DNA of 33,927 nucleotides, from assembly GCA_004335635.1 (NCBI GenBank), contig QAXH01001414.1, forward strand, positions 1,681 through 35,607, written 5' to 3'. The notes under the pieces were generated by a model that saw only the letters and a program-made list of their open reading frames with translations, was not told where the DNA came from and ran no database searches. The stretch comes from Chloromonas sp. AAM2 (lineage: Eukaryota; Chlorophyta; Chlorophyceae; Chlamydomonadales; Chlamydomonadaceae). The translations under genes were made by a program, and so were the position numbers. Below are positions 6,809 to 32,483 of the stretch, piece after piece (position 1 is the first letter of the stretch; every line of letters begins with the position of its first letter).

Positions 6809-9516
6809 ATGGGGCTCTTTGCGTGCTTTGGCCGTTGCGGAGGACCACTGGTACCCGCGGACCACACAGAGCTAGGCAGGGAAGAGGTGCGTTAAGCAGT
6901 GGGAAAGGGCAAATGAACGGAAGACTTCTTGCCGCGCACTGCCAGCGAAATTCTTCACGAACACATCGTGTGCTGTGCACATACTTGCAGCTCAAGCGGC
7001 TTTATGAGCGGTCGCTGCATGTCAACAATGGCAGGCTCATTGTTCACGGTGGGTGCAGCAACAGCCGTACTCGACCCTGGCGCTCTACTTGCATTGATAA
7101 AGCGCACTGTTGACTTGTTCGGTCACGATTGCAGGCATTTTCGCGCGAGCCAACACCAAGAACAATAACAAGCGCGTATACCCCAAGGTGATGATAGTCA
7201 TCTTACATCCTCGTGCCTCTTGAGCTACTGCCAGCAGCTGGTGGCGCCATGTAGGCTGGCTGATACAGCCATTGAGGTTTACAAGCTGCACCTTCTGCTG
7301 CTTTTCGCAGTACATTCTCAAGCGCGAGGTGGCCAAATACGAAGCAGAGCACATACAGCGTGGCACTGCGCTTGGCGAGCTTGACCACCCAAACTATGCT
7401 TCACGTTACTTTAAGTGCCTCAACCTGCCCAACATCAGCCATCAGGTGCGGCAGCAGAATTCCAACATGAATGGAGCACTGACAGATCCTTTCCAGAACA
7501 GCACTGTGCTCCCTGCAATGCGTATGCAGTGCCCCATGTGCAAATCTGCATGCCCGCAAAGAAGTGATGCCGCTTTTCGCTTGGTGCTCGGCAGGTGCTG
7601 GAGGTTAACTGGAAGGGCGACCTGCTGTGGGGCACTATTGAAATCCTAAGCACCCCGTCAGGCCTGCTCCTCTGGGAGCTCTACTCACAGGTATGTGCAT
7701 GCATACTGATCGGCTCACTGGACCTGATATTCAATCAGGCAACTGGGACATACGTGATAGGCAGTGCATGCCCTCTGCCACGCCCAATTCATATGTTCTC
7801 CATCTTGCAGACGTATGCAGCATGCCAGCACTGGTCACAGGCACCTCTGCACGTGTCAGACACCTGACCCATGAGAGTAACGGCACATTTTTGTTGACAT
7901 GCATTCCCCGCACATGCTCACACGCATCTCATGGCGCCCTGCAGGGCATTAAGCTGGGGGTGTCCTCGCGGGGTTGGGCTTCCTTACGCAGCGACTCCAA
8001 GGCCAAGTGTGTGTATGTTGATGAGGACTTTGAGCTAATCACGTTTGACTTCGTTACGGAGCCCTCTACCAAGGGTGCCTACCTGGTCCCCATTGTACGG
8101 CCTTACGCAGATGCCATTCCCAACCAGCGCAGGGCGCAGCAGGTGGCACATTTAGGGCATGGGGTGGTGTCCATGCGCAACATACCACACCTGCCTGACA
8201 CACACATTCTTGTAGCGCACATCAACCAGCTACAGAAGCAGCAGCAGCAGCAGCAGCAGCAGGGCGGCAGCCAGCAGCAGTTGAACGGGCAACTGGCACA
8301 TGCCAACACCCTAGATCAGCTGCTCTTGTACAGCCACTACCTGGTGTTCCCGCAGCTAGCATACCTAGATAGGGAGCAGCATGCCAGGGACTTCCAGTCG
8401 CATTTGGCCATGTTTGCCACCCGGGCTCATCTAGCAGACCAACACCACCTCATGAGCAGAGCGGACCTTAATGCAATCATCCTGAAGGAGATTGCAAAGG
8501 AGGAAGCAGCGGCTGGGGGTGGGTGTGATGGTGGGGTGGTTGCGTCGGTTGAGCCGGTTTCAGCGAGTAAGACGGCGGTGGCAGCAGCCAGTGGCCCAGT
8601 GGTTGCCGGAGAGCTGCACAATGGTAGGCTGTCACCTGTGCCGCCTGCCAACTGTCAGCACCAGCACCGGAAACAACATTTGCACGGGCAAAAAGAATGT
8701 GATGCCTTCCCGTTCACCAGCGACCCGGCGGCACATGTGGTTGCCACCGTGCAGCCCAGTGAACACCTAGGGCCTGAGCAGGGATGCCGCCATCAGCAGG
8801 GTGGTGGAAGCACAACAGACCCGCCGGATGACCTCCAAACATGGGTGATGCATCCACACTCATGTGAGCCACAGGTGCAAGGCCCTGGCAGCATCAGACC
8901 ATCTGCATCAGCGCCCTTGCCGCCTAGCTCGGCCCTACCACCTGGTAGCCGGCTGGCTAGTGGGCGGCAGGGGGCGGAAGGCAGCATGCGGCGGCATAGT
9001 GGGCAGTGTGTGGCCGCACTGCCTCCGCCCATGCCCCGGGCCGGGGGTGTATTAGCGGCCAGCCCGGCACGACCAGGAAGCACCGGGTCTGGCGGGTTGC
9101 CCGGCAGCGGTGGCTTGCCATCCAGCGACGCAATACCGCGACAACCGTCGCCAGGAACCTCAGCATGCGTGGCTGCCAAGGTACAGGGTTGGCAACAGCC
9201 AGGGCCCACACAGCATCACCACCAGCAGCAGCAGACCCTGCCCATGCACTGCGCACCGGCAGCAGCAGCGGCCGCAGGCCCCTCATCCTACCACCACAGC
9301 AGCGGCCCGGCTGCAGTCGTGTGTTCTACGGGCAACAGCACAGAGGCTGAAGTGGCCGCTGAGTTCCATCGCATCAAGATCACACTGGCGTCATTCGGTG
9401 CCAAGCTGGCAGCTGAACGGCGCAATATGATGGTGGCGCTTGCTGTAGTGTTGCCGGTGGAAGATGCGAGTGCAGGCCAACTGGCCTTTGCCACAACAGG
9501 CTCACGTGCACACTAG
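6809..9516 (+). CDS. T4-type prohead core (capsid maturation) serine protease homologue, six exons
   Basis: Exons are 6809-6886, 6991-7048, 7135-7187, 7311-7445, 7595-7690 and 7945-9516. All phases agree and all introns are GT-AG, giving 663 residues. Residues 39-190 follow the phage T4 gp21 prohead protease fold: a first strand and N-x-R-x-Y-P motif (IFARANTKNNNKRVYPK, 47-63), helix ILKREVAKYEAEHI, GELDHP with the presumed catalytic His89, the W-K-G-D-x-x-G strand (114-121), GVSSRG with the presumed nucleophile Ser (147/148), and FELITFDFVTEPSTKGAYLVP. In phages this enzyme cleaves scaffold and capsid proteins inside the prohead. The host role here is unknown. After residue 200 come a poly-Q run, a helical segment (LLLYSHYLVFPQLAYLDREQ), a long Ser/Pro/Gly/His linker and a final helix (EVAAEFHRIKITLASFGAKL). 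The start codon is the least certain part; the frame stays open for some way upstream. Confidence 0.85.
8238..8280 (+). repeat. CAG-rich microsatellite coding poly-Gln
   Basis: A run of CAG codons in the last exon of the prohead-protease homologue encodes about nine glutamines, then GGSQQQ. It lies just after the conserved protease core and is probably length-polymorphic. Confidence 0.8.
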
Positions 9517-13518: not shown

Positions 13519-16500
13519 TCATTCGTCACCATCCATGGAAGGTGTGATGTCAGGCGAGCAGGACATTGCGGCCATGTTTGGCTGGTTGCGCCAGGGGCAC
13601 AGCAGCGAGCGTAGCTCCTCCTGCTCCTCGTCAGTGAAGTGTGAACCAGGAGTGAGGTAACGGACCTGAAACGGCAGGCAAAGGTTGAAGCAGCAGCTGC
13701 TCAACATTGGCGGAGGAAGGCAGAGGCATGACAACGAACCAACGACCAGCTAAACAAGAGGCGGACAAGCGCCATTTGGTAGGTGCATGTGGACTGTTGC
13801 CTGAGTCAGCTCATTCTCAGCTTGCAAAGCTGCAGTGTTGTGTTACTCTTAGACTATGCAACAGCGGTCATGCGTGCTGCCACGTGTAAGCAGAACAGTC
13901 AGCAGTCTCCAGCCCCCCCCTGCCCACCTGCTTCATGGCTGTGTGCTCGTCCATGGAGCGCGGAATGACCTCAAGTGTGTTGTTGATGTTGTCCCCGTCC
14001 TTGGATGTTGGATGATCGGCAGAGTAGCTCCACACACCGTCCACAATCAGCTTGTACGGGTACTTGCCAGGATAAAGCTTCCTGCACACACACGGACCAA
14101 GTGGTGACATTCCAGTCGCATGGTCACAGCGGGTATGTCAGTGCATGTCACCAGGCGAAAACAGCTGTGTTTGGATCGGGACGTCACCAAGAGTTGCTGT
14201 TTGGTGTCCACGCACAACCGAGAAGCACATTCTTGGTCGCACTGCGTCTGTGTCCGCCGCGGACATATACACTCGGTTTTACTTTTGCCATGCAGCTGCT
14301 GCGCAGTGGTGTGATGCACTCGTGCATAGAACCCTCTGCATCCAGGGGGTGCACGACGCAGGCCCTTCAAAACTCAGCAGGCATGTGCATGTCGTGTCTC
14401 ACCTTTTCAGAATAAACCTGTGTGTCTTGGGATCCTTTTCCATATCCAGGGGGGCATGCCAGCCCACGTCAAGCCCGGCCACCTGCGCGCATGGACACAA
14501 CGCGGTCAAGTGCGATGGCCCATACCGTGCCCCTCCTAAGCCCTTGTGAGAGTATTCCCCTCATGAGCCCGTGTAAAGAATCTCACAACCTTCCTGTAGA
14601 ATCTTGCATCCCGCACACATGGTATGCAAAGCACACGGCTTGCTGTCGTCACTTATGTAGGTATCCACAGCGTACATGCACCATTATAGGAGGGGCACTC
14701 CACGTCATGCCTGTCGGGCGGCACTGTGGGCGTGCAATCACTGCATGGGGGGCTGCTCTTCCGATGGCATGCCGATGGCATGCAATATGCTGGCGCCATC
14801 ACACTGCACTGCCAGCTGCACCATAGTGGCGCAACACGTGCTTTGCTTGACCCGCAGCTCGGCTACAGCGAGGACAGGTGCTGCAGGTGCTCCCTGCCTC
14901 CGCGCCCCAACCGCACCCCACACCTGTATGCGCTGCGCTGTCCCGTACCGGTCCACTGCAATGACCGCCTCCACCGGCTGAGTGCCCAGCAGAAGGTCAG
15001 CGGTAGCAGAGCGGATGGCCTCAATCTGAAAACAGACAACCACGCACACGATTGTTGAACAATGGAGGCAAACTCGCATGCCCAAAAGCTCATTTGTCGC
15101 CACATGAGCACCACACAGCACATCTCACTAGGCGCAGACAGAACATGGCTGTGCGTTGACAAAGGCTGGACGCCAACAGAATTATTACACACTGTGCGTC
15201 ACCCTAGTATCACTGGTGCATGCCAACCCAACCTGCCTCCGTCTGCAGGTGCTGTCACACTCAGTCCAAACCACAAATCAGTTCTACCCAGTGTGGACCT
15301 GCCTGTCATGCCTTGAGCGGGTGTGAATCTGGCTCACCTTAGGCCCGCAGCGTCGGAGCGAGGTGAGGTTGGCGAACGCCTCGTCCAGCTGCATGCCGCG
15401 GATCCAGTTCATGTAGGCGAGGGCGGTGGCGGGCGCACGGCCCATGCCTGACAACCACACCGTCAACATGAGAACAAGTGCTTTTGGTGTAACGTATATC
15501 AGTGATTGGCATTGCAGGAACTTCATTAAAAAAGATGTTTGCCAGTTCTGGGACAATTCCTGTTGACTGTGAAAACCCGATTCCACAAGTGATGAACCAC
15601 AAGTTCACTTGAATGTGCAGACAGCCTGAACTTAACAGGGCCACAACGCACCCGCTGTGCAGTGTATGTAGACCGTCCCCTGGCCCTCCGAGTGTTCCTT
15701 GGCCAGGCGGGAGACAGCCCGGGGCAGCTTGCGGCGCAGGTCAAAAGGGTCGAAGTCATGGATGGGGAACCTGACGTGCTTGATGTCGCCCCGCTCCGCG
15801 CAGCGCGCCTGAATGGGGACGATGTCCAGATTGAAGTACGCCATGTCAGTGTCCTCCTGCGGGGCAACGGCAGGCACTGGGAATTCAAGCCCACAGGCTG
15901 ACTGCATTGAGCAGCTTACAGTCTCAGGCACCAGGCTGATGCTGGTAAATAATGGATTCAACCTTGAGTTGAGTTGGTGCAGCCTTCCAAGCCCACAGAC
16001 ACTGATTGACAAGCACAGTCGTACACGTCAACATCAAGGAGTACCGCATACAAGAGCAACTAGGCTGTCACTGACAGTTAAGGTGCCTGCACTTCATGCA
16101 CGTTACTGTATCGCCTGTCAGTGCCAGTGCAGCTGATTGCTGTGCACAATCGCTGGCCAGTGGGTGTGCCTGCACCACCCCAATCTTTTACCCCTCCCAC
16201 CACCACCCCTGTGCGCCCACCTGTATGCAGAAAATGGTTGTGACGCCCTCCTGATCGGCCAGTCGATCCACGTCTGCCGCTGTCTGTGGAGCGGCAGGCA
16301 GGGCAGCAGACCAGATGCGAGCTAGGCGGGAGGACCACATCACATTAGTATCAAGTGATGGTCAGCATTGCGCACATGTCCAGGCCATGAATTGCCCAAT
16401 TGAGCCACCAACTGCCTAACATCTGCCATGCATGGTACACAACATGCATCAACTTGAACTGCGAAGCATGTTCAGAATGCAAAGGTAATCGTGTGGCCTA

Positions 16501-17171
16501 GCTGCTTGGAACAGCTTTCTGGTACTCTGGCTGATTGACTGTTGCTTCTTGCTTTCTACAGTGCTGAACACCACAAGCCCACGCCTTACAGATGTAAGGC
16601 CGTACACACCTGAAGACATGACCCCACGATCAGGTCCGGCAATATTCGGTTGTAGTCCAGACCATTCTCGTGGCGGTAAGTGAGACTGGTGCCCATGCGC
16701 CGGTTCATAACCTCTGAGTAAGCATCTGACTTGGATGTCTCATCTGCTGATGAAGCAGCTTCGGCATCGGATGCAGGGGTAGGTGCTGCTGCTTCTACTG
16801 CTGTGCCTGTACGGTAGGCAAGCACATGGGTACGAAAGGATGGGGCAACAAGCGGGATCATGCAGCCAGGCACGTGTTTGTTGCAACCCTAGAAGACTTG
16901 CTCACAATACTGCTGGCAGCACGATGAGCATGGGCGACAATTCACCTGCGCTTTCTGTGGCTGCTCGGTTCAGGTATGAGGGGCGTGCCACCGGCCGCAC
17001 AGCACACAGCGATAGGGTATCGCGATGCAACTTGGAAACCCTGCACACAACCACAGTAGGATGTAAAGCCGTCAGCGGATCTGCCACAGCCATCATGGCG
17101 TCTACCCGGTCTGCACGTGTGATGCCATACCTTGCAGCGTTACCCGAGGGTCGCAGGTTCAAGAACTTCAT
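13519..17171 (-). CDS. SEX4: SEX4-type phosphoglucan phosphatase (DSP + CBM48), plastid-targeted
   Basis: SEX4 removes phosphate from starch glucans in the plastid during starch breakdown. Minus-strand exons are 17131-17171, 16946-17040, 16610-16806, 16221-16283, 15652-15856, 15338-15447, 14924-15025, 14403-14482, 13928-14081 and 13519-13665. All phases agree, giving 397 residues, close to Arabidopsis SEX4 (about 380). Residues 1-55 are Ser/Arg/Ala-rich like a transit peptide. The recognition region reads [15 protein letters not shown]. The catalytic acid is in HDFDPFD (about 166-171). The active-site loop is HCTAGMGRAP with Cys198 and Arg204. CBM48 follows ([38 protein letters not shown]), then the short C-terminal helix ([12 protein letters not shown]) seen in plant SEX4. 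The first intron (17041-17130, 90 nt) is in frame and could be retained, adding 30 residues to the leader. Confidence 0.93.
15537..15559 (+). repeat. Dispersed motif copy inside a SEX4 intron
   Basis: GTTTGCCAGTTCTGGGACA plus ATTC, preceded by AAAAAAGAT. It lies in the 204-nt intron between SEX4 exons 5 and 6, antisense to the gene, so the intron probably carries a small repeat insertion. Confidence 0.85.
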
Positions 17172-18729: not shown

Positions 18730-21700
18730 ATGGGCAAGAATACCACGCCGGCTTCAGCGGAGCCAGCCCCAAAAGCGTCAAGTCCTGCTTCGTATGACAT
18801 ATTCATATCATACAGGTGAAGCATCGGCGACCAAAGAACGGGCATCATGCAAGCTTGTGCCTACAACCCTGTGACATCAACCTTTCTGTCCGGCGGGGCA
18901 CTTGATTGCGCGTACGGGCGCCAGCTTGCACTCGCCGTCTTGTAGTGTGATGCGCCCGTGGCATGCCGGGTCTGCGACATCCCCCGGATGCTCATCACTA
19001 CTGTGTTACTGTGCTCCTTGTTTTGAGCCCTGTTGTACTGTTCCTTGTCCACAGGCAATCCGATAGTAAGGATACAGCCTTGGCCCTGTACGCCATGCTC
19101 ACACAACGCTACCGACTGAGAGTCTTTCTAGATGCACAGGTGAGCAGCACCTTCAGCAGTTGAGGACCGGGGCCCCTCAGCCCTTGGCCCTTGACCAATT
19201 GAGCCTCACTTGTGCACATTGTGCACATTGGGTCAGCCTTGGTGCCCAGCGGCTGAAGCAGGCTCATTCAAGGTGCCAAAAACGTCACGGTTCTTGCCTG
19301 CCTGTCTGCACATCCCTTGGAAGATTCCCTGCAGCTACGATGCATGCAATGGCTTGGCAGGGTTGCAAGTCGTGCTGCCATGGCTTCAGGCTGAGCAACA
19401 TTGGCAGGGTTGCAGGTAGTGCTGTCTAGGTGAGGCGTCAGGCGGGCAGGCAGGCAGGCAGGCTGGCAGGCTGAGCAACATTTCCAGTTTCACGTGGAAT
19501 TTGCCAGCCCCGTATCGTGCATGCCTCACAGGAGCTCGACAACCTACATGACCTGGCCCAGTTAGTGCGCAAGTCCCGCTGCGTTGTGCCCATTATAAGG
19601 TGTGGTGGTTGCGTGACGGGCACATCAGTACGTCAGTTGCATGCCATACCAGCTAGGCGACACATGGCAGCCCACCCGCTGACTTGCAGGCATGGAAAGG
19701 TATGCAGACAGGGGCTGTTAAACAGGGCCGTAGGGCAAACGGCGTAGCGTGTGCGGCATTTGTGCGGCATGCTTGATCCTCCCTCTGACCCTGTGTTGCC
19801 TGCAGTGCTGGTTACTTGGAAACGCTCACCAACCCCACCAGTTGGTGCTCGCTGGAGATCATCACAGCACTTGAGTCCAACATTTCCTTGGTGCCGGTGT
19901 ACGATCCAGGTAAGGACTGAAGGCAGATTGTCAAAGCAGTCCACTTAATGGTTGCAAGGAATTCAAAGCACTGTGTTGGTGTCTGGTGGGAGTGGTCAGC
20001 ACGCCAAATTGCAGAACAGCGCACGTTATCTGGCAGGGCTTCAGATGGACGGTTGCTGCCTTGGCTGCCCTTATTCCCACTCTGCAGCAGACAACACCGC
20101 TCAGCTGGCTCCTGGTATGCGTGTGCAGAGAAGACTGGCATCCCTGGTGTTGCCTACACCGACGCGCTGTCTCCAAAGCTCAAGCCGCTGTTCAAGATCC
20201 TGTTCAAGGCCATCCGCAGGGAGGGGGAGTACCTGGACGTGTTCTTCAAGGACCTGCTCAGGTGGCAGGGCATGCAAATGGGAATGCAAACGGGCAGCAA
20301 AAGGGCATTACATGTAAATGTGCGAGAGCATGCAAATGGGCGCCATGGCTACGGGCAAATGATGCATGTGTATCTTGACCTGCTCAGATGACCAACCATG
20401 CACAGGTTTTCTCAGTTGTCCATTCCTAGTAACTTGTTGAGTGTAGCTGCTTACGTGAACAGGCAGTCATGAACAGCCAACCATGGCGCACATGCGTGCG
20501 ATCAGACCCGCTGCTGCTGGCCCAGGCCGCCCTCGGCATGCAATCGCATGCCCTGACTGGATGCATGTGAGAGCAAACCTTGAATCATGACTGACACCTG
20601 CAAATACCATTTGATGGCGCTCAGCCCCTCTCTGATGGGTCAGATGTGCGGGTCATGGCATGGCAGTTATGGCATGCACTGCTATTTGATAACATATCGG
20701 CCAATACAGATGGAAGCAACCAGGCAAGTTACTGATCAACACTAGGGGAAGCAAGTGAGCTTCACGTGCGCAGTGTGAGCATGCCCCTGCCCGCCTGCTT
20801 ACAGGTCCGGGTGTCAGGAGGGCGCTCGGCAGGAGGACACGTGCAGCTTGAGTGTGGCAATGATATAACTTGTGTGCCCCTGTGCCCCTGTGCGCAGGTC
20901 TGCGGGCCAGGAGGACGCGTGGCTGTGCGCCTCGGGCAACCCCTGGGAGGCGCTGGACTGCAGCCCAAGGACCAAGTACATGTGCCAGGTAACGGGTGGG
21001 ATGGGGCCGGCAGTCAAGCAGGGCAAGCGGGGAAGGGCGCATGTGCGTGTGCAACTGTTCGACACAACAGGGGGCAGGTCGTGTGTGTGTGCGATCATGG
21101 TCCAAACAGATGCCTTCATTGTGCATGTCTCAATCAGTCCGCATCATGGCCTCGCCTGCAGGCCAGTTCAGTGCGGTACGAGGTGGCCAGTACGCTCATC
21201 AAGCGACTGGGACTGTCGGACATTGACGATTTCAAGTAAGCCTTGCAAGGGTGCTTCAGGTTTGCAGGTTTGCGTGCCATGGATTGCAAGCAGATGCGGC
21301 CTTGCATCACATGACACAGATGCACAACACTGACCCCAACACTTATTCCTGAAATTCAAGGGTGTGGGCGATGCTGTGTCATGCCATGAGCATGTAAATG
21401 CGGCCCAGTCGGGTTCACTCTGTCAGCAGGGTTTACCTACGGATTCTGGTTGGCACCCTGGTTTCTAAAGGTGTAAGCCTCTGACGTGTGGGCGGGGTTC
21501 CAAGAACGATGCTCAATGAGCGATGTCATGTCGCTGGCATGTGAATCCACACTCTCCCCCTGACACAGGTTTGTGACCGAGGAGATGGTTGATGAGGTAG
21601 GCCTGAAGCCGCTTGAGAAAGCCAAGGTGATCGAGCTGGTGCGCTGCATCAAGGCGGGCGAGTGGGCGCATGTGACGGACCAGGACGTGCTCAATGGCGT

Positions 21701-24700
21701 GTACGACTGCCCGCTGACACCCGACACGCCGTGCGCCTCGGCCCCGGCCAGTGAATACGGGGGCTCAACGGCCGGCAGCCAGCGCATGCGCTACGCAGCC
21801 CTCACTGTGGCCGCCACGCAGAAGTGAGTGGGGGCTGGGGCTTGGGACCAGAGCTAGCTGTGGTTCAACACTTGGCTGCGGGTGTGGGCCCGCCGTTTGT
21901 CATAACGCCCATGCCAATCACTGACACTGTCCACTGCATGTCCACGTCAATAACTGGTAGTGCAAGTGCACCAACCCTGAATCAAATCGAACCCTTGAGT
22001 AGCTCATAAGGAAGTAGAGCTCAGGTCAGGAGCTGGCGCGGCTGCACCTGACTGTCACCATCGTGCTCTTGGGCGTCATTGCCCTCAAAGCTCACATGCC
22101 TTGGCCAGAGGTAGGGGCAGGGCTGGCGCTCCTGTCCCGGCCCTTACCGTTTGTGGCCTCATAAATGACTGCCGCCTTCTTTGCCTGCCCATCACCTGAG
22201 TGTCTGTGTGCTGTGCTGGCCTGCAGGCTCGCCTCCGCCCGCCTGCAGAGCTCCCCCTCCATGCAATCCACCCGCTCCCTGTCGCCCAGCCTCTCGCAGC
22301 GCACACAGAGCGTGTCTTCGGCCCGGCCCACAACCGCATCGACCGCAAAGCCGCTGGAGCCCCGCAACAGCCGTGGCCTGCTGCAGTCGCAGTTGTCGCA
22401 GCGCACGAGCCCAGGCGGAACGCTCAAGGGCAGCATCAAGCCGGGCACCTTCGACCGGAGCAGCTCCTTCGCAGATTCATCGGTGACAGATGCAACCATT
22501 GTGGCAGCCATGGGTAAGCCACCCTGTCACCCTGTCAATGCTTCACACCCTCAAACTGACACACCGTCACTCTGGCACATCATCACTCTGGCCCATAGTC
22601 ATACCATGTGCACGTCAGGCTTGTGATTGTGGTTGACTGTGACTGGTGATTAGGTCGAGGTTGAGGCGGGTGGCTGGGACGCTGTGCCCAGTTGTTATGT
22701 TCACGGTGGCTGGCAACTGACCTAGAAGTGTGACACCTGGTGTGCCCATGTAGCATGTGCTTCCATTTTCATTGGCACACGTTGCATGTCCTTTCAGGCA
22801 TCACGCGTGTGGTGAGTGGTGACCTCGCTGAGCTGGCCGCCCTGCTGTCGCGCGCCAAGCGCCCGCTGACACTGGACCTGGCCAACCGCACCTTCTCCTC
22901 AGCTTCCTGGCGGGGTGTGCTGCTGCTGGGGCGCAACGGACTCAGCATGTCAGGGGGAACGCTGGTGCTCAGGCCGGGCCAAAAGGTGGGCACTCTTTCC
23001 GGAATGAGGGTAGGTGGTGGTAGTTTTACGCTTGTTCTGTATGCTACATATACTGTGGAGGCTGCACTACAGGGGCTGTTAGAGCTCTTACATTGTATTC
23101 CTGATGTACAATTGCGGTACAATAATGTACTTCCGACCCAAGGGGGGGGGGGGGGGGGGGGGGTAAAGACCATGACCCTAGCACAAAAAATGGCCTCGGA
23201 CTTTTCAAAATAGGACCACTTTTGGAACCCACCCAGAAACGGCTCAGAATTACATGAATATGGGCTCATTCGACAGCTCTCGTCAACGCCTATCCCCTGG
23301 ACAACTTGGTTGCATATTTCACTTGAACAGTGCCCCACTTGTGGGTCATCAAAGCCCAGGCGGCCCTATCCAAACCCTAACCGCCACCCATGTCACAGGC
23401 CATGGGGGCATGCCAAAGGTAACCTTCACTTGCAAGGTATGCAAGCATATCTCGCTCTGCATCCGGTTTTGGATCGCTGTTTGCATTTCCTGCGGCCTGG
23501 CGCCGCAGGTGACGCAGGCCACGCCAGCGCCGGCACCCTCGGACACTTCCCCAGCCCATAACAAACCACCCACAAGGCCGTTGTGGGAAATGAAGATGGT
23601 TTTGGATAGATCTCAACAAGCTGCAACCAACCACATCTTTAGAACCTTGAATTCATTGTGGTTGATCCATAAAGCAAAAATACTCAGAAAGGTCGAAAAA
23701 GTAGCTCGGGCCTTGCGGAGGACTTTCATACCACCCTGTCAACCATCTCAGAATGAACTGAAACCTTGGATTCGAGCTCCTTACACCGCTGGCACTCGTA
23801 TAAGTGGTTCAGAGATACCCACTCCCACCCAAGGTCATTTTCTATAGACCGACCACCCCCCCCGCCCTGCCCGACCGGGTAAAAATCCTGCACCTGAGGT
23901 CAAATCTGATTACAGTCAGGAACCGCCATGAATTGTGGTTTGCGCTCCCAGACGTATCTGAAGTGGTACGACATCAATCTGTGCAGCATGCCAGCAGGGT
24001 GGCTTGCGTATGTAAGACCAACATGCTGTGTGTGCTGCTGCCTGTTTCATTCAGCTTGTGCTCACGGGTCAGGACGTGCTGCTCGAGGACCTGTGTGTGC
24101 GCGCGGCGCGCCCCTCGGGCGGCAGCTCCGTGCACTCACACGGGGTGGACGAGGACGGGAGCACGGACGAGGACGAGACAGAGAGCGAAGAGAGCGACGA
24201 CGAGGAAAGTGAAGAGAGCGAGGAGAGCGATGAAGATGAGGATGATGAAGACGATGAGGAGGACGACGGAGAAGAGGAGGTGAGCATGGCGCATAGGCGA
24301 CAGCGTGCTTTTGTTTACAGAGTGCGTAAACAGGGAGCAAGCCACCGTGCACATCAACACTCCGCGTGTGGTTCAGTCAGTGATGAGTGTCCGACGAATA
24401 GGACGGTGATGGACACTTGGTGGCCTTGTTACCCGAATCGAATCCCATCTTGACGATTGGCCGCCCGCCTCTATGGGAAGGCATCCAAGCCCTCTACACC
24501 CCGACTGAGACCCGCATTGCAGAGAAAGCGAATTCTTCAACCGCAGCGCTTCATTGGGCACCAGACACATGCCGCCTAGTATAGCTCACACACGAGAACC
24601 CATCTCCGAGTTAACTACTAGCAGAACATGTTGGTTACTGTCGGCTACTTTTGGAGCCAGAAGCGATATAAATTGGAAGCCTTTGACAAATGCAATGAGA

Positions 24701-26983
24701 TTAACGCCGCTCGAAACTCCAACCGGCTGTGTCACAATGTTGGTCTGGTGGCAAACCAACACTTTCACTGGTAGTCTGACCATGGCTTGTCGTGTGCTCT
24801 GGTCGTCACATGGTTTCAGGAAGACGAAGAGGAAGAGCAGGAGGAGGCTGAAGAAGAGCCAAAGGCAAGTACACAAAATGAGGGATTTGCTTACACCAGG
24901 AATAGTGGAACACAGCGACACTTGGTCACCCTTTGCAGTTTCAGCGGGTGCATGTGTAGCCCTGCCTGCACCCTGATATTCAAGATGAGCATTGCGTGTG
25001 CACGTCGGCCTCAAGGCCTCAAGGCCCGCTTGGGTGTTCTTCTTAGGTTCAAAGCCCACTCTTGCAATTTCGGAGAGAGGGACATCCCCTGCTGCACATG
25101 TACAGGTGACATGGAACAGATAAATTCACACGTTTTGCATACATCATTGCAGATGAGTGGCAAGGCCCGTGACGCGCTTGTGGAAGTGCGGGACGGGGCC
25201 GTGGCTACCATGCGACGCGTGACGCTGCTGGCGGCCGGCAAGCGCGACGCGGCAATACGCATTGTGCAGGGCGGAACGCTGACAGCGATCGACTGCGTTG
25301 CGTCCAACACGGGCGGGGACAGCAGCCAGCATGTGGCTGTGGTCACGGGCGCAGGTGAGGACTGCATGTGGCTGTGGTCACGGGCGCAGGTGAGGACTGC
25401 ATGTGGCTGTGGTCACGGGCGCAAGTGAGGAATGCATGCTGCTCCCGTTGGAAACTCTATATTGGAAACATTCCCAGTCACACAGTAATCATGACGCTAT
25501 TTGTGCACTGCGCGTATCGCACACGTGAGCTGGTCATGCACCATGTGCTGCGTGCATTCGTCTCACATTTCTTGCCTTGCACGCGCTGCAGGCTGCACAT
25601 TGCACGCTGAGGAGAGCAAGCTCTCAAACTGCTTTGGCAGCGTCTTATTCGTGTCGCAGGCCGGAACAGCACGCCTGTTCGGCTGCACTGTTTCCAAATC
25701 TAAGAGGAGAGGGGTGGGTGCGTTCACATGACGACGGCGAAGGCACAGCGCCAACAGTCTGTGCCTTGCCAGCCTATGTCCATCTTTCCCGCCCGGCTCA
25801 GTACAGGAGGTCGGCAGCGTACTACCCACAGTTGAACTGACTGTCTATCAACAGGTTACGATCAACCAAGAGACACAATGCACCGTCATGAATCCAAGCC
25901 CGAGTTTAGAGCACACGATGGACAGTTGTGCCCACTTTGCTGCTCTTTCCTCTCAGGGTGCCGAGGTGACAGACTACGGCTCCATGCTGACGGCGGACAC
26001 CACCCAGTTCTGCAGGAACCGCAACGCAGCGCTGGCCGTGCATGCCACCGCCACCGCGCAGCTGGACTCGTGCTCGCTGCAGGACTCCTCGACCAGCTCG
26101 GTGGGTGCACCAGGGAACTTATCTAGTGGGCACTAGGGCTCGGTGGGTGCACCAGGGAACTTATCTAGTGGGCACTAGGGCTCGGTGGGTGCACCAGGGC
26201 ACGTAAGGGCGCCATGGCAGAAGGCAAACCTCAACACGGAAAAAGGGCTTTCAGCTAAATTCTTGTATCTGGGCCCTCGCTGCTCGCATAGCAGTCAAAC
26301 AAGCGTGTAGTAGCACCACACCGATAACTGTGCGGACGTAGCCATGCGATCCTTACAGTGCTTGGAACGCCTGCTCACTGCGCACACCTTCAGGGCCTGG
26401 TGGTCTGTGGCCGAGGCACGAAGGTGATTGCGCACAACACCACCTTCAGGGATAACGTACAGGTGAGGTGCTCAGGGATAACGTACAGGTGAGGTGCTCA
26501 GGGATAACGTACAGGTGACGGGGCGGCTGCTATTCATTCAGCCTGGCTGACATGCCTACCGCATTATGAGAGGGCTCGGTTGACAGGAAATCATGGCGTC
26601 GGCATGCCTACCAGGATGCCAATGGTACTGTGGGGTGATGGGGTTGCCACACCCGGCTAGTTGAATACATTGCTGAAGGGCTTGGAGATCACGCCACGAC
26701 ATCAACTGCTGCATTCTGAAAGTTCATGCCAGAATGTCACCTGCATACCGACTTCAGTGTCATTCTGACGTCCCTCTGCCCTGCTCCGCTGGCCCAGGCC
26801 GGCACCTACATCACAGACGGCGCTGCCTTGTCCGCCACTGGGTGCTCGTTTGTGGGCAACAAGCGGCACAGCGCGGAGGTGGAGGGGCACAGCAGCACCC
26901 TGTCACACGACTTGAGGTGCAAGTGGAGCCCACAAAAGGGCGCCAGCGCGTCCAAGGGAGCCCTCATTCACCTGCTCACTTAA
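18730..26983 (+). CDS. TIR - SAM-like - right-handed beta-helix protein, 17 exons
   Basis: Exons: 18730-18815, 19055-19139, 19532-19599, 19806-19909, 20129-20261, 20898-20988, 21162-21235, 21569-21823, 22227-22513, 22798-22985, 24055-24279, 24820-24864, 25153-25354, 25592-25713, 25957-26100, 26394-26462, 26798-26983. All phases agree, giving 787 residues. Start ATG (MGKNTTPASAEP) has a good context (AACATGG). Residues 22-150 form a TIR domain: YDIFISYRQSDSKD, YRLRVFLD, SRCVVPIISAGYL, SWCSLEIITAL, LVPVYD. W93 and E97 match the W-x3-E of NAD-cleaving TIRs. Residues about 195-250 look like a SAM domain (LIKRLGLSDIDDFKF, LEKAKVIELVRCI). A Ser-rich linker spans about 300-390. From 395 on, short repeats of the G-x-x-x-C-x-F/V type suggest a right-handed beta-helix, interrupted by an Asp/Glu/Ser tract (about 480-545). 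No signal peptide or membrane segment is seen. The exact 3' end is less sure: a GT after TTGAG at 26913 could open another intron. Confidence 0.82.
22986..24054 (+). other. 1.07-kb intron with a G22 homopolymer, probable inserted element
   Basis: This intron of the TIR gene is three to ten times longer than most others in the window. It holds 22 consecutive G at 23142-23163 and eight C at 23856-23863. Between them lies a 197-codon open frame (23254-23847) that is basic and unrecognised. The interval between the G and C tracts may be an inserted transposable fragment. Confidence 0.45.
23142..23163 (+). repeat. Poly-G tract, 22 nt
   Basis: An uninterrupted run of 22 G within an intron of the TIR gene, flanked by CCGACCCAA and TAAAGACC. 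It can form a G-quadruplex and is prone to length errors in sequencing. Confidence 0.95.
24865..25152 (+). other. GC-AG intron in the TIR gene
   Basis: The exon ends CCAAAG and is followed by GCAAGT, which is the standard consensus for the minor GC donor class. The acceptor is cattgcag. Phase 0 is kept on both sides. Reading on would add a frame that leaves the beta-helix pattern. Confidence 0.65.
25330..25434 (+). repeat. 35-bp tandem repeat spanning a 5' splice site, three copies
   Basis: Units begin at 25330, 25365 and 25400. Each contains GGCTGTGGTCACGGGCGCA followed by a GTGAGG donor (GGTGAGG in copies 1-2, AGTGAGG in copy 3). The first copy includes the end of the exon at 25153-25354. 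Use of a later donor would add 35 nt and shift the frame. Confidence 0.9.
26096..26199 (+). repeat. 42-bp tandem repeat spanning a 5' splice site, 2.5 copies
   Basis: Units begin at 26096, 26138 and 26180 with GCTCGGTGGGTGCACCAGGG. The first covers the exon end at 26100 and its GTGGGT donor. The third copy is partial. Confidence 0.9.
26446..26518 (+). repeat. 26-bp tandem repeat spanning a 5' splice site, three copies
   Basis: Units begin at 26446, 26472 and 26498. Each has GGGATAACGTACAGGTGA, so each recreates the exon end and GT donor of the exon at 26394-26462. The third copy diverges after GGTGA. Confidence 0.9.
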
Positions 26984-28180
26984 CCACAGGAGAAGCCAAG
27001 ATATTCCCAAGACAAATAGCCGAGATATGGCGGGCCATGTGCTCGGATGTGGTTGCCCCACTTTGTTTGAATTCAACTAGTCAGGAAGGCAAGAGTGCCG
27101 ATGCCATGGGTAGCACAGCCATGAAGCTTCAACGACGCCAGCTATGTAGGCCTGCGATCAGAAACGAGATAAGTTAAACGTGAGCTAGAATGTTGAGGAA
27201 TTGCAGTTGAGCTGAATGTTTGTTTGCTTACATGGGCTTACGCTTGCGCGATTGTTCAAGCCATGTTAACTGGACTCAATCATCGCTTAGATCAATAGCT
27301 CTACGACGTGGCATGCCTTGCACACTTGTCTGTGGTTACATAGGTTGCGTGATGATTTGAGTGAGTTTCAGACCATTAGCAGTACAGAAAGCTGAAGGTG
27401 CCCCGCACGTGCCAACAGGTTGTAGCCAAGCGAGTTATGCTCAGGTATACATGTGCTTGTGCTACTGCACTACTGGCAGCCTAGAGATGTCAGGAAACAA
27501 CAAATACAGCATGCTACAGGCGGCAGGACGACACTCGATTCGAGTTTCACACAAAGCAGCCAATAGCCAGAAAGCAGCAGAACACAGAGACAGCTGCACA
27601 TGCCTGAGAAATCTAAGGTCGAGCCACCCCTTTCACTGCTTGTTTTGACCAAATGAACCGTGACCAGTTTGTTTCTTGTTGCTGAAGGCAAGCTCTGCAC
27701 GCGCTGGTGTAATATCGCTTTGAGCTACGATGCAGCCTCGTGAAATGCTGTTATTCCGCACTCAAATGTCACATGTACCATGAAAGCCAACTGCAGATGC
27801 TGGCAGGCGCACCTGGACTTTGGACCTGGATAAGATTGTCAGGAATGAACACGGATTGCTGACCTTTGGTTCGCCAGTCCGGCAAAACCGTCTGCCGGCC
27901 GTTGCTAAACCAATGATGTCTGAAGTTCGGCGAAGCTGACTAAACAAACGCTCGTCTTACATGTTGTTGCATATACATTCATCCTTTTAAAAACTAGGTT
28001 GGTGTTTTGTCTGTCAGCAACCACTTGCACGTTTGCAAGTCTTGAAGCGAACCGTGCCCGGCAAGCCACCCCGAGCAGGCGTTTGTTCAGCATTAGCATA
28101 GGATACCAATCCCATCCAATCGCAATCCTATGTGCGTTGGAATACGCGCATCCCAATTGCCGTGAAATACGAACGGAAAT
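26984..28180. other. Intergenic stretch: 3' UTR of the TIR gene and promoter of the oxidase gene
   Basis: No gene is convincing. A TGTAA at 27708-27712 is the first candidate poly(A) signal after the TIR stop codon, implying a 3' UTR of about 0.7 kb. The last few hundred bases before 28181 should hold the oxidase promoter. No copper- or iron-response element stands out. Confidence 0.45.
27708..27712 (+). terminator. Candidate poly(A) signal TGTAA
   Basis: First TGTAA after the stop codon at 26983. Assigned by pentamer and position only. Confidence 0.35.
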
Positions 28181-31100
28181 ATGGCACATTCAAGTACCTG
28201 GCTGGCCCTTGTGCTCTGCTTAGCAGCGAATGCCGTCCACATTGCCAGAAGTCAAGGATTAAGAAGTGGAACCATCATGCCTACACGGCCGAGTCCGAAA
28301 ATTGCGCATTTTGAGCTTGAGGTCACGTTGGTGAGAGGTGCACCGGCTTGCGGACCGATGCGCGCTGTCATCCTTGTCAACGGCCTGTTCCAGCCCACGC
28401 TCTACGCTAACGTAAACGACACCATCAAGGTAAGTGGGCGCGTTCTGATGTTTGCACAGCTTCTCAGCAGCCCACCACTGAGTAACGACACAACATGTCC
28501 GCATTTCTGCAGGTCACCATCATCAACAATCTTCCTACTAGCCTGCCCACGACATCATCGGGGATCTCCCTTCACTGGCATGGCTTCAGCATGTGGAACG
28601 AAGCAGCTTGGGCAGACGGCACCGCCTACGTGACTCAGTGCCCCTTGGCAGCCGGCACCAACTACACGTACAGCTTCCTGGTCAGTGACATATGTATGTC
28701 GACCGCTGGCGCCTGTCTTAGTGTAGATCCTCTTCAAGGACATGTCACAAAGCCAAGTTGTGAGGGCATTAACCCAAGGGGGCAGGCCTGATTGCAAGAT
28801 TGGCAGCCGGCTCAAAAGGCAACGGGACTGTTTAGACGCTGCTGTACTGCTGCTTTGAGCAACTTGGCAATACCATAAACCGATGTATCCCTCAAGTATG
28901 TCATGACTCTGTGGTGCAGGCTGACGAGTCACCGGGCACTTACTTCTGGCATGACCACAGCGCCATGAACCGAGCCAACGGGCTTCAGGGAGTCCTGATC
29001 CTCGGCATGCCTGTCCTGGACTACGAGATCCCCGTACCACTGGTGGAGGACGGCGAGCACGTTGTGTTCATTACGGACTGGTTTGACATGGAGGCAAACA
29101 CGATGGCCATGCAGCTCAACAGGTGTGGCACGCATCAGGACAAGCCACTGATGGCGGTGTATGAAGGAAAGTAAGAAAGAAAGAGGACGGCAATCGTTGT
29201 AAGGAAGAAGGCCGAGCAGTCAAGCCCAGCCCCCATGTGAGATTGCAGTGCATGAGCCAGGGCCAGCATGATGCATGGGGCATGGGTGCTTACTGTAGCT
29301 GTGCGTTTTGCCTTGATGCAGGCCTAGCGATGTTGATAAGGCGACTAATGAAACTGGCACGTACGTACGCATTGGCAACTCGGATGCTCTGCTGATCAAT
29401 GGCAAGGGCAATGGCGGCGACTGCAACACCACCACCTTGAACGGCACCTCCCCCATTTGCAACGTGACTGCATTGACAGTGCCAGCGGGACATGGGGGGG
29501 CAGGCTGCACACACGAGACGTTTGTGGTTGAGTCCGGCAAGCTCTACAACTTCCGCCTTATCAACGGCGGCACCCAGCAGTACGTGACGGTGTGCTTTGA
29601 GAAGCACAAAGTCTATCTGCTGGCAGCGGACACCACACCCATGGACACCCCTATGATTGACTCGGGCTGCGTTGACATCAATACAGGGCAGAGGTGAGGG
29701 GCAGGGCAGGGCATGACGGGGTAGCCAGGTTCAGCATGCCATGGGACTCCAGGGGAACGAGGTGACATGATGGGCCGCTACACAGGCCAGTTGTTGTGCT
29801 CTCTGTGTGCATGCGACAGCATCTTCTTGCCCTGCTCTCACTGCCCACAGGTACGATGTGCTGTTCGAAGCTAACCAACCCCCAGGCTTGTACTGGATGT
29901 CAGTGCACGAACAGTTTCAGACAGGCGCCAAGTCCACCTATGCGGTCATTCGCTACGCTGACGCCAACAGCAGCCAGCCCCTGCCTAGCACACCCACACC
30001 GCAGCCCGCGGGTGTCCTGCCCTGGGACCTGGACACAGAGAGCAAGGTGCGGAACCAGCACCCACACATATGCCGGCCCCAGCATGCAGTTTACATCTTA
30101 ACATTGGTATGCACGCCTTGCACGCAACTGCAACGGGTGGCAGTGCAGCAAGGTCGAGGAACGGGCTGTTGTTGCGCCAGACGCCTCAGCTTACCTGTCA
30201 TTGAGATGCTGGCAGCCCAGCTTATTGTGCCTTTTTCTCTCGTGTCTGTTATTGTTGTCTTGCTAGCGCCATTGGACGCCTGAACTGCGAGCTTGACAGT
30301 GCTCAAATATGCTGTCAGTACAACGACATGTACGGTGTGATGGTTCATGCAGATTCAGACCAGTGACTCAATCCTCGGATACAACGACAACTATGACTAC
30401 GAGTACTACTGGCAGCTGTTCCAGCACCGTGGCGGCTATGGGGATGGTATCCTGTACCCCGCGTTTAATGCTGACAAGATCGTCGTGTTCAACATGACCC
30501 AGCCGCTGCTGGGCAATGGGGCAATCAAGTGAGCGGAGGCGCCAGGGGCATGGCATGGCAGGGGCATTGTTTGACGAGACAAGAGCAGGGGCGTATGGCC
30601 GCATGATGCAACAGGAAAAGGGCAGGGGCGCATGGCCGCATTGTTCAACAGGACAAGGGCATGGGCATGGTTGCAGGTCCACGATCAGCGGTTCAACAGG
30701 GCATGACTATGCAATGCCATGCAGTGCACAGAGCAGCTGGCATCCAAGGAGGTTATGGTTCGTGCTTGGGTGTAGCCTGCTCTGGCAGCCTGCTCGTGCT
30801 TCTTGTGTATGTGTTGTTAGATCTGACACATTTAAAAGCGTATGCTACTAGACACTGTGCTGTTTTTGTTACGCCAGCGTCGTCTTGTGTGCGCTCCATG
30901 CAATCCCTGGAATGGTTGTTCACTCATCATCCTGTTTGCTGCGTGCGTCGTGTGGTGTGCAGGTGGGCTGTGAACAACATCGCACACAGCGGCAACCCGC
31001 CCTGTGCCGCGCTCATGGACAAGATTGCAGCAGACCCCTCTTATCTGGCCAACCACACGGCGCCCAATGCAACGGACGTGCAGGCCAACACCACCATGGC

Positions 31101-32311
31101 CATGCTGCACGTGTCCACATGGAATAGGACCGCGGAGCCCACCATCTACCACGGCGACAGGGGCTCGCCAGTCAAGCCGGTGGCGGGCATGCACGTAGTG
31201 GAGCTGCAAAAGGATCAGGTGCGAGGCGGGGCAGACAACTGGTGTCTGTTCTGGAGGAGGTTCAGCAGGACACCAACCTCTGGGCAGTCGGGCCAGGGTT
31301 ACAGACCAGGGACACGGGCTGTTGCGAGGGTAGGCATTGTAGGCGGATGCAGCAATCAAATCGCTGGTGTGGGAAATGCCTGCCCTTGGCAGACCAGGGC
31401 TGTTAAGCGGGTAGGCAGGCTGGGCGGGGGCAGCGACCAAGTCAGCCACTGCAGCTGATTGAGGGTATGAGGAGTGTGAGACCGGCATGGTGCATAGCAC
31501 CGGGGTGACACATGCGCTTCATGGGTGACGGGAATGCGAGTGTTGTTGCATGCAGATTGTAGATGTTATCATCAACAACCTTCCCTCCAACGCTATGAAC
31601 GGCGACTATCGCAGCAACTCATCCCGCGGCTTCACCTCCGCGCACCCCATACACTTGCATGGGCACAAGTTCTGGGTGAGTCAGTGGGGCACACGGGAAG
31701 GGAACAGACTCACTGGCAACTGGACTGGGTTGAGCTCTGCCTGATGCATGCTCACCAGGGAGATCAATGGGCATGAGCTGTGCAGTCTGGTGCTTCTGCC
31801 CACACAAGCTGTTATTGTAGCCTGCTGTTATCTGCAACTCAGTATCTAAACCACGCACTGAGTTCAGCTCCTGTCAAACAAAAAGGCGTGCATGGACTGG
31901 TATATCAAGGTTCTATCCAGTGCAATTGCCGCATGCACTCATGGTGTATGATTGGTGGATGTGCTGCAGGTGATGGGCACGGGGGAGGGCGTGTTCAACC
32001 GCACACGCGACATGGGCAAGCTCAACTACCGCGCCCCCATCCTGCGCGACACCGCCACGCTGCCGCGCGGGGGCTGGCTGTACGTCCGCTTCAAGGCCGA
32101 CAACCCCGGCATGTGGCCCATGCACTGCCACATCATGTGGCATGCGTACATGGGGCAGTCGGTGGTGTTTGCGGAGGCAGTCAGCGAAATACCAAAGCGG
32201 CCTGAGCCGGGCCCGCCCTGCCCCGGACAGTGTCTGAACAGCTTCGCGCCCTTCACACGCTCATGGGTTAAGGAAAACTACAAGGGAGACCGCTTCCCCC
32301 TGCCGTCCTGA
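28181..32311 (+). CDS. Secreted multicopper oxidase, ascorbate-oxidase/laccase-like, nine exons
   Basis: It should oxidise a substrate at a type-1 copper and reduce O2 to water at a trinuclear cluster, outside the cell. Exons are 28181-28429, 28513-28680, 28920-29170, 29322-29693, 29851-30046, 30353-30528, 30963-31218, 31556-31675 and 31970-32311. Phases agree and introns are GT-AG, giving 709 residues. The N-terminus is a signal peptide (STWLALVLCLAANAVHIARS). All four copper motifs are present: HWHG (about 104-107), FWHDHS (150-152), HPIHLHGH (586-593) and HCHIMWHAYMGQ (648-659). WADGTAYVTQCPL and the tail SVVFAEAV are closest to ascorbate oxidase. Many N-x-S/T sites fit a secreted glycoprotein. 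The residue ten past the motif Cys, normally Met, Leu or Phe, is Gln659. The real substrate (ascorbate, phenol, Fe(II) or Mn(II)) cannot be told from sequence. Confidence 0.93.
31303..31446 (+). repeat. Imperfect duplication of about 60 bp in an oxidase intron
   Basis: CAGACCAGGG...GGCTGTT...GGGTAGGCA...GCAGC blocks occur at about 31303-31366 and 31391-31446 in the intron between exons 7 and 8. The preceding intron (30529-30962) also has GGCATGG/ACAGGA-type repeats. Confidence 0.6.
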
Positions 32312-32478: not shown

Positions 32479-32483
32479 TGTAA
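32479..32483 (+). terminator. Candidate poly(A) signal TGTAA for the multicopper oxidase
   Basis: The pentamer lies 168 nt after the stop codon at 32311, a usual distance for green-algal genes. Confidence 0.5.

Follow-up and report, generated by a model that had tools for sequence, protein, structure and literature searches.

Results

A gene predicted to join a TIR domain to a beta-helix

The genome of Chloromonas sp. AAM2 contains a gene whose product is predicted to begin with a TIR domain, continue through a small helical and perhaps SAM-like domain and a flexible Ser/Thr-rich linker, and end in a right-handed beta-helix that carries an acidic loop. The gene lies on the plus strand at 18730–26983 of the stretch analyzed here, a window of 33,927 nucleotides. 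We rebuilt it as 17 exons comprising 787 codons and a stop codon, with no internal stops. Fifteen of the 16 introns have GT-AG borders, the one after exon 12 has GC-AG borders, and the phase is consistent at all 16 junctions. A sequence-only reading of this DNA had proposed 17 phase-matched exons, and we reproduced their positions, frame and splice sites. Each exon was also given a codon score in a leave-one-out fashion, with the table built from the remaining 16 exons; scores were above zero in 13 of the 17 exons and slightly below zero in exons 1, 2, 14 and 16.

Neither the TIR domain nor the beta-helix is contained in a single exon. Exon 12 may be optional because it is only 45 nt long, has phase 0 and is followed by the GC donor. 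Exons 15 and 16 (25957–26462, plus strand) encode 48 and 23 amino acids, are phase 0-0 in the splice check and correspond by eye to about two rungs and one rung of the beta-helix. Three tandem arrays are present at 25329–25438, 26096–26199 and 26446–26518, with periods of 35, 42 and 26 bases and 3.1, 2.5 and 2.8 copies, respectively, at 97–100% matches. Each array spans an exon end and its donor (introns 13, 15 and 16), which places near-identical donors in series at 3 of the 16 introns.

The TIR and beta-helix exons probably belong to a single transcript

We consider it probable that the 17 exons constitute a single gene with a single transcript. The junction that matters most for an alternative division is intron 8. 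Left unspliced, this intron takes exon 8 at once into a TGA at 21825–21827; farther on, the ATG at 22165 opens a frame that continues in phase through exon 9. These features, together with outside support that covers exon 2 only, would suit a pair of adjacent genes in which exons 1–8 encode the TIR and helical domains and a Ser-rich beta-helix gene follows, beginning either with this ATG or in an undetected upstream exon. We judge such a pair improbable, as the intron 8 donor GAAGTGAGT ranks in the top 5.6% of GT sites and the acceptor, which ends CCTGCAG, in the top 1.5% of AG sites in the 18.7–27 kb region. Moreover, the 62 bases from the ATG to exon 9 (22165–22226) have an intron-like score of −0.24 bits per codon, as compared with +0.37 for exon 9.

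Polyadenylation motifs also bear on this point. TGTAA is the poly(A) signal of green algae, and a motif scan finds the first copy 3' of the stop codon 725 bases on (27708–27712, plus strand); another, at 32479, follows the stop of the neighboring oxidase gene near 32311. No plus-strand TGTAA occurs between 21472 and 24011, and hence none from 21827 to the ATG at 22165, which argues against a gene end after exon 8. We take this absence from intron 8 as modest evidence because introns 5, 7 and 10 of the model contain TGTAA as well (at 20313, 21393, 21472 and 24011).

It is very improbable that TIR and beta-helix exons of different loci were wrongly joined during assembly. The contig (C377, 35,607 bases) does come from a draft genome assembly of 74.4 Mb in 2324 contigs, and a run of 22 G lies within intron 10. 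Nevertheless, codon scores and splice signals are alike on both sides, and in an exon-level search of the genome 16 of 19 matches were to the gene's own locus, with the remaining three being the paralogue of the helical segment described below and two weak matches on the acidic tract.

The TIR domain retains a W-x3-E pair and has a short BB loop

Exons 1–5 (18730–20261, plus strand) encode an N-terminal tail and the TIR domain, to which Pfam assigns residues 22–115 and whose probable C-terminal part extends by eye to about residue 160. The earlier claim of a TIR domain is borne out by two Pfam families that each exceed their gathering cut-offs, TIR_2 at residues 24–115 (E 1e-9, 39.3 bits against 28) and TIR (E 1.8e-4, 21.8 bits against 21.3). 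The best TIR matches in the PDB are flax L6 (8.6e-6) and SARM1 (1.3e-5), and the best matches of the TIR part in NCBIfam and PADLOC are Thoeris TIR proteins (3.8e-8 and 5e-6). Four more Pfam families matched the protein under their own cut-offs, three of them on the acidic tract. N-myristoylation of the N-terminal MGKNTTP was considered and rejected, as the PROSITE rule bars its Lys and Pro.

Exon 4 (19806–19909, plus strand) holds W93 and E97 within the motif SWCSLE. Both residues align with the equivalent pair in SARM1 and L6, so that the W-x3-E arrangement is kept. According to a 2020 survey of TIR domains (PMC7075850), the equivalent Trp and Glu of SARM1 (W71 and E75 in the survey's numbering) bind ligand, the Glu at the E75 position is critical for NADase activity, and the BB-loop motif of SARM1 contains residues that are important for catalysis. 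The BB loop of the algal protein, FLDAQELDNLHD, is 3–4 residues shorter than the loops of SARM1 and of the TIR proteins P0003 and P0004, contains no glycine (as is also the case in P0004) and, in our alignment, does not keep the SARM1 motif E(R/K)LEAG as the survey gives it.

It is possible, if somewhat doubtful, that this TIR domain is a non-enzymatic interaction module, in which case the protein would act as a scaffold in a housekeeping or stress pathway, perhaps a non-immune one, making TIR-TIR or TIR-partner contacts in addition to those of its beta-helix. A short, glycine-free BB loop is what such a module might have, and the survey notes that E75 is likewise common in certain TIRs for which no activity has been reported (PMC7075850). 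The retained W-x3-E pair points the other way, as does the conservation of exon 2: the BB loop begins in this exon, and 27 of its 29 residues are kept in another protein, the NCBI entry P0002. Exon 2 ends within the BB loop, and agreement with P0002 stops there too. The length of the loop thereafter hinges on the acceptor chosen for exon 3, whose start could be misjudged; an alternative in-frame acceptor eight codons upstream, located by eye, would give a longer loop with no added glycine.

A recurring helical segment follows the TIR domain

Exons 6–8 (20898–21823, plus strand) encode a helical, SAM-like domain at residues ~172–246, which is a candidate SAM domain, and then the start of the linker. 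On its own this segment gave only Pfam matches below cut-off, to NOL10_2nd (E 0.0078), GULLO2-like_3rd (0.066) and SAM_TNK (0.11), and no SAM domain was found for it in the PDB up to E 10. The segment recurs once elsewhere in the genome, on contig C2071, with 37% identity (E 5.8e-7), and the two copies share D-C after W as well as LKPLEK. The segment is likely a genuine domain, given that a second gene carries this 37% identical copy. The paralogous copy scored nothing in Pfam, and a two-sequence profile of the segment and its paralogue retrieved a single ribosomal protein from the PDB (E 1.1). A SAM_1 search of the genome contigs was uninformative in that its controls were silent too. Thus, of the earlier SAM-like claim the recurring helical segment stands, while the SAM identity, for which no Pfam or PDB match rose above threshold, is not established by these sequence comparisons.

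The C2071 gene that carries the paralogous segment (L021, 4068–4858, minus strand) is preceded by an 86-aa frame without a Pfam match, and no match to the TIR or beta-helix part of the query was reported on C2071. Searches of the genome found no further credible copies of the segment; a weak match on contig C734 (E 0.23, with an internal stop) was judged to be chance after inspection of its frames.

A Ser/Thr-rich linker leads into a predicted beta-helix

The linker, read by composition from exon 9 (22227–22513, plus strand), is 29% Ser plus Thr over residues 249–394, in agreement with the Ser-rich linker described from the sequence. Exons 10–17 (22798–26983, plus strand) encode the putative beta-helix, which by eye spans residues ~395–787. 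Pfam Beta_helix matches residues 618–759 (E 1e-10, 41.9 bits against a cut-off of 25.9), whereas the region, queried without its acidic insert, had no matches in the PDB or NCBIfam. The earlier beta-helix claim is thus upheld as a Pfam assignment. In a periodicity test with 500 shuffles, lag 23 gave 0.070 and lag 25 gave 0.038, a marginal result, uncorrected for the 17 lags tried. Exons 11–12 (24055–24864, plus strand) cover an early part of the beta-helix and the Asp/Glu-rich insert, in which 45 of the 61 residues at 486–546 are D or E.

A membrane helix is usually called at a Kyte-Doolittle mean of about 1.6. The highest 19-residue mean in the whole protein is 1.29, which argues against a membrane helix.

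Homologues and the search for the same domain order

Exon 2 (19055–19139, plus strand) is the one part of the gene that we have seen outside this genome. It matches P0002, a 257-aa NCBI entry from a 1645-base contig, at 27 of 29 residues (E 1.7e-5) in a protein search and pairwise alignment. The alignment stops exactly at the 3' edge of exon 2 and extends five residues past the 5' edge with one identity, and when P0002 was searched against the genome of the window it matched the TIR/beta-helix locus only. Since its sole genomic match is this locus and the flanks differ, P0002 most likely comes from another alga. The comparison suggests that exon 2 is under constraint and provides independent outside support for that exon; the fusion as a whole we have seen in this genome only.

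A protein search with residues 1–290 had 5766 candidates, and not one passed E 0.01. With residues 1–299, three of 3748 candidates matched at E 10, namely P0002 and the TIR proteins P0003 and P0004 (E of about 3), the last two resembling the TIR domain in pairwise comparison with residues 1–159. The whole-protein search, among the 7991 candidates sharing the most words with the query, gave one unrelated match (E 3.8). Among 5.77 billion sequences, from which candidates were limited by length and shared words, no protein of the same domain order was found. Residues 1–250 had no confirmed relative in prokaryote and viral contigs, nor did the beta-helix in viral contigs, in searches from which the records nearest this genome were possibly excluded. 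We also found no description of a TIR domain joined to a right-handed beta-helix in the open-licence literature, and no such fusion is named in the available parts of PMC7075850, PMC9806590, PMC7145615 and PMC6040629. The statement that no described system has this order is consistent with these protein and literature searches.

Within the genome the gene is single-copy by exon-level search, as might be expected of the scaffold considered above. Profile searches of the genome with TIR_2, TIR and Beta_helix missed the window's own intron-split gene, and the failure of the same type of search to find NB-ARC in the genome is weak evidence because it misses genes cut by introns. A second TIR gene lies on the minus strand at a contig end (L022, G000:C629:16500–21065), with TIR_2 at E 2.6e-5 for one exon and 1.6e-16 for joined frames, and is by eye unlike the TIR of the window. 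Beta_helix has three other matches in the genome (L023, L024 and L025; frame lengths 351, 450 and 325 codons), and two of them exceed the Pfam cut-off.

Neighboring genes and host

None of the three neighboring genes scanned suggests immunity, which would also fit a scaffold outside immune pathways. Directly downstream is a multicopper oxidase (28166–32311, plus strand, the limits being frame limits; Cu-oxidase_3 E 2.3e-19 from joined frames). A SEX4-like phosphoglucan phosphatase at 15284–16888 (minus strand) was recovered from joined frames with a PDB match to SEX4 at E 2e-37. Split frames at 7224–9516 (plus strand) match a phage-type prohead protease, which is unexpected in an algal contig (Pfam Peptidase_S77 E 1.2e-8; phrog_207 head maturation protease E 1.8e-26), the joined-frame query being approximate, with its seven first letters wrong. 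Chlorophyll a/b-binding proteins have 30 matches in the genome, of which many are partial; these and the SEX4-type glucan phosphatase agree with the earlier identification of the host as a green alga.

Discussion

Comparison with known TIR proteins

By the features tested, the predicted protein appears to be a member of neither the SARM1 nor the NLR family. Like SARM1/TIR-1, an ARM-SAM-SAM-TIR NADase, it has a TIR with W-x3-E (E 1.3e-5) and a possible helical oligomerisation domain nearby. Unlike SARM1, whose TIR is C-terminal, it has its TIR at the N-terminus, has no ARM match and at most one candidate SAM-like domain, does not keep the ERLEAG motif of the BB loop and adds a beta-helix. The proposed likeness to SARM1 is therefore weak, as the order is reversed, ARM gives no match, the one SAM-like segment is unproven and the BB motif is not kept.

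Plant TNLs (TIR-NB-ARC-LRR), such as flax L6, resemble the algal protein in having the TIR at the N-terminus and a repeat solenoid at the C-terminus, and the L6 TIR is its best PDB match. The algal solenoid is a predicted beta-helix, however, and Pfam at E 1 finds neither NB-ARC nor LRR in the protein, which speaks against the description of it as NLR-like. NLRs are reported from the chlorophyte Chromochloris zofingiensis (PMC7145615). The bacterial Thoeris TIR proteins (ThsB, ThcB4) are the best NCBIfam/PADLOC matches for the TIR part only; the NCBIfam match reaches 32.6 bits where the cut-off for ThcB4 is 220, and the algal gene differs in being eukaryotic with introns. By description, the protein can be set beside the Group 18 TIRs in the 2020 survey by Toshchakov and Neuwald (PMC7075850), which comprise invertebrate, protist and seven chlorophyte TIRs of diverse architectures; these too are eukaryotic TIRs in varied fusions, including some from green algae, and no beta-helix fusion is named among them in the available part of that survey.

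Proposed function

TIR domains are signaling and NAD-cutting modules in animal, plant and bacterial immunity. What the predicted protein sequence itself supports is a TIR domain, a beta-helix, their order in the gene model and the candidate catalytic residue pair. On this basis we tentatively favor a soluble, cytosolic TIR signaling protein, perhaps an NADase, that uses its beta-helix as a binding platform, and that may work like other TIR-plus-solenoid signaling proteins. We infer that it may oligomerise, sense a ligand, cleave NAD and have a role in immunity along the following lines. By analogy with other solenoid repeats, the beta-helix would most likely be the surface to which a ligand or partner binds. 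Such binding, or clustering of the protein, would bring TIR domains together, perhaps with help from the helical domain. The gathered TIRs would then act either by cleaving NAD or by recruiting further TIR proteins, with a stress, immune or cell-death response as the outcome.

A more far-reaching version, which we think unlikely, is that the protein is an intracellular immune or cell-death receptor of green algae that dispenses with NB-ARC and LRR. Ligand sensing by the beta-helix would then cause the TIR domains to assemble and cleave NAD, and the receptor would have arisen independently, as a counterpart to the TNLs of plants and the SARM1 of animals.

Published chlorophyte TIRs are few: 16 of the ~26,400 TIRs classified in 2020 came from chlorophytes (PMC7075850), and the four TIR groups shared among land plants in a 2022 study are without any unicellular chlorophyte sequence (PMC9806590). 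If coupled to TIR as predicted, the beta-helix would be a further type of solenoid in such proteins, one we have not found described with TIR in the open-licence literature, and the gene offers a testable entry to TIR signaling in algae.
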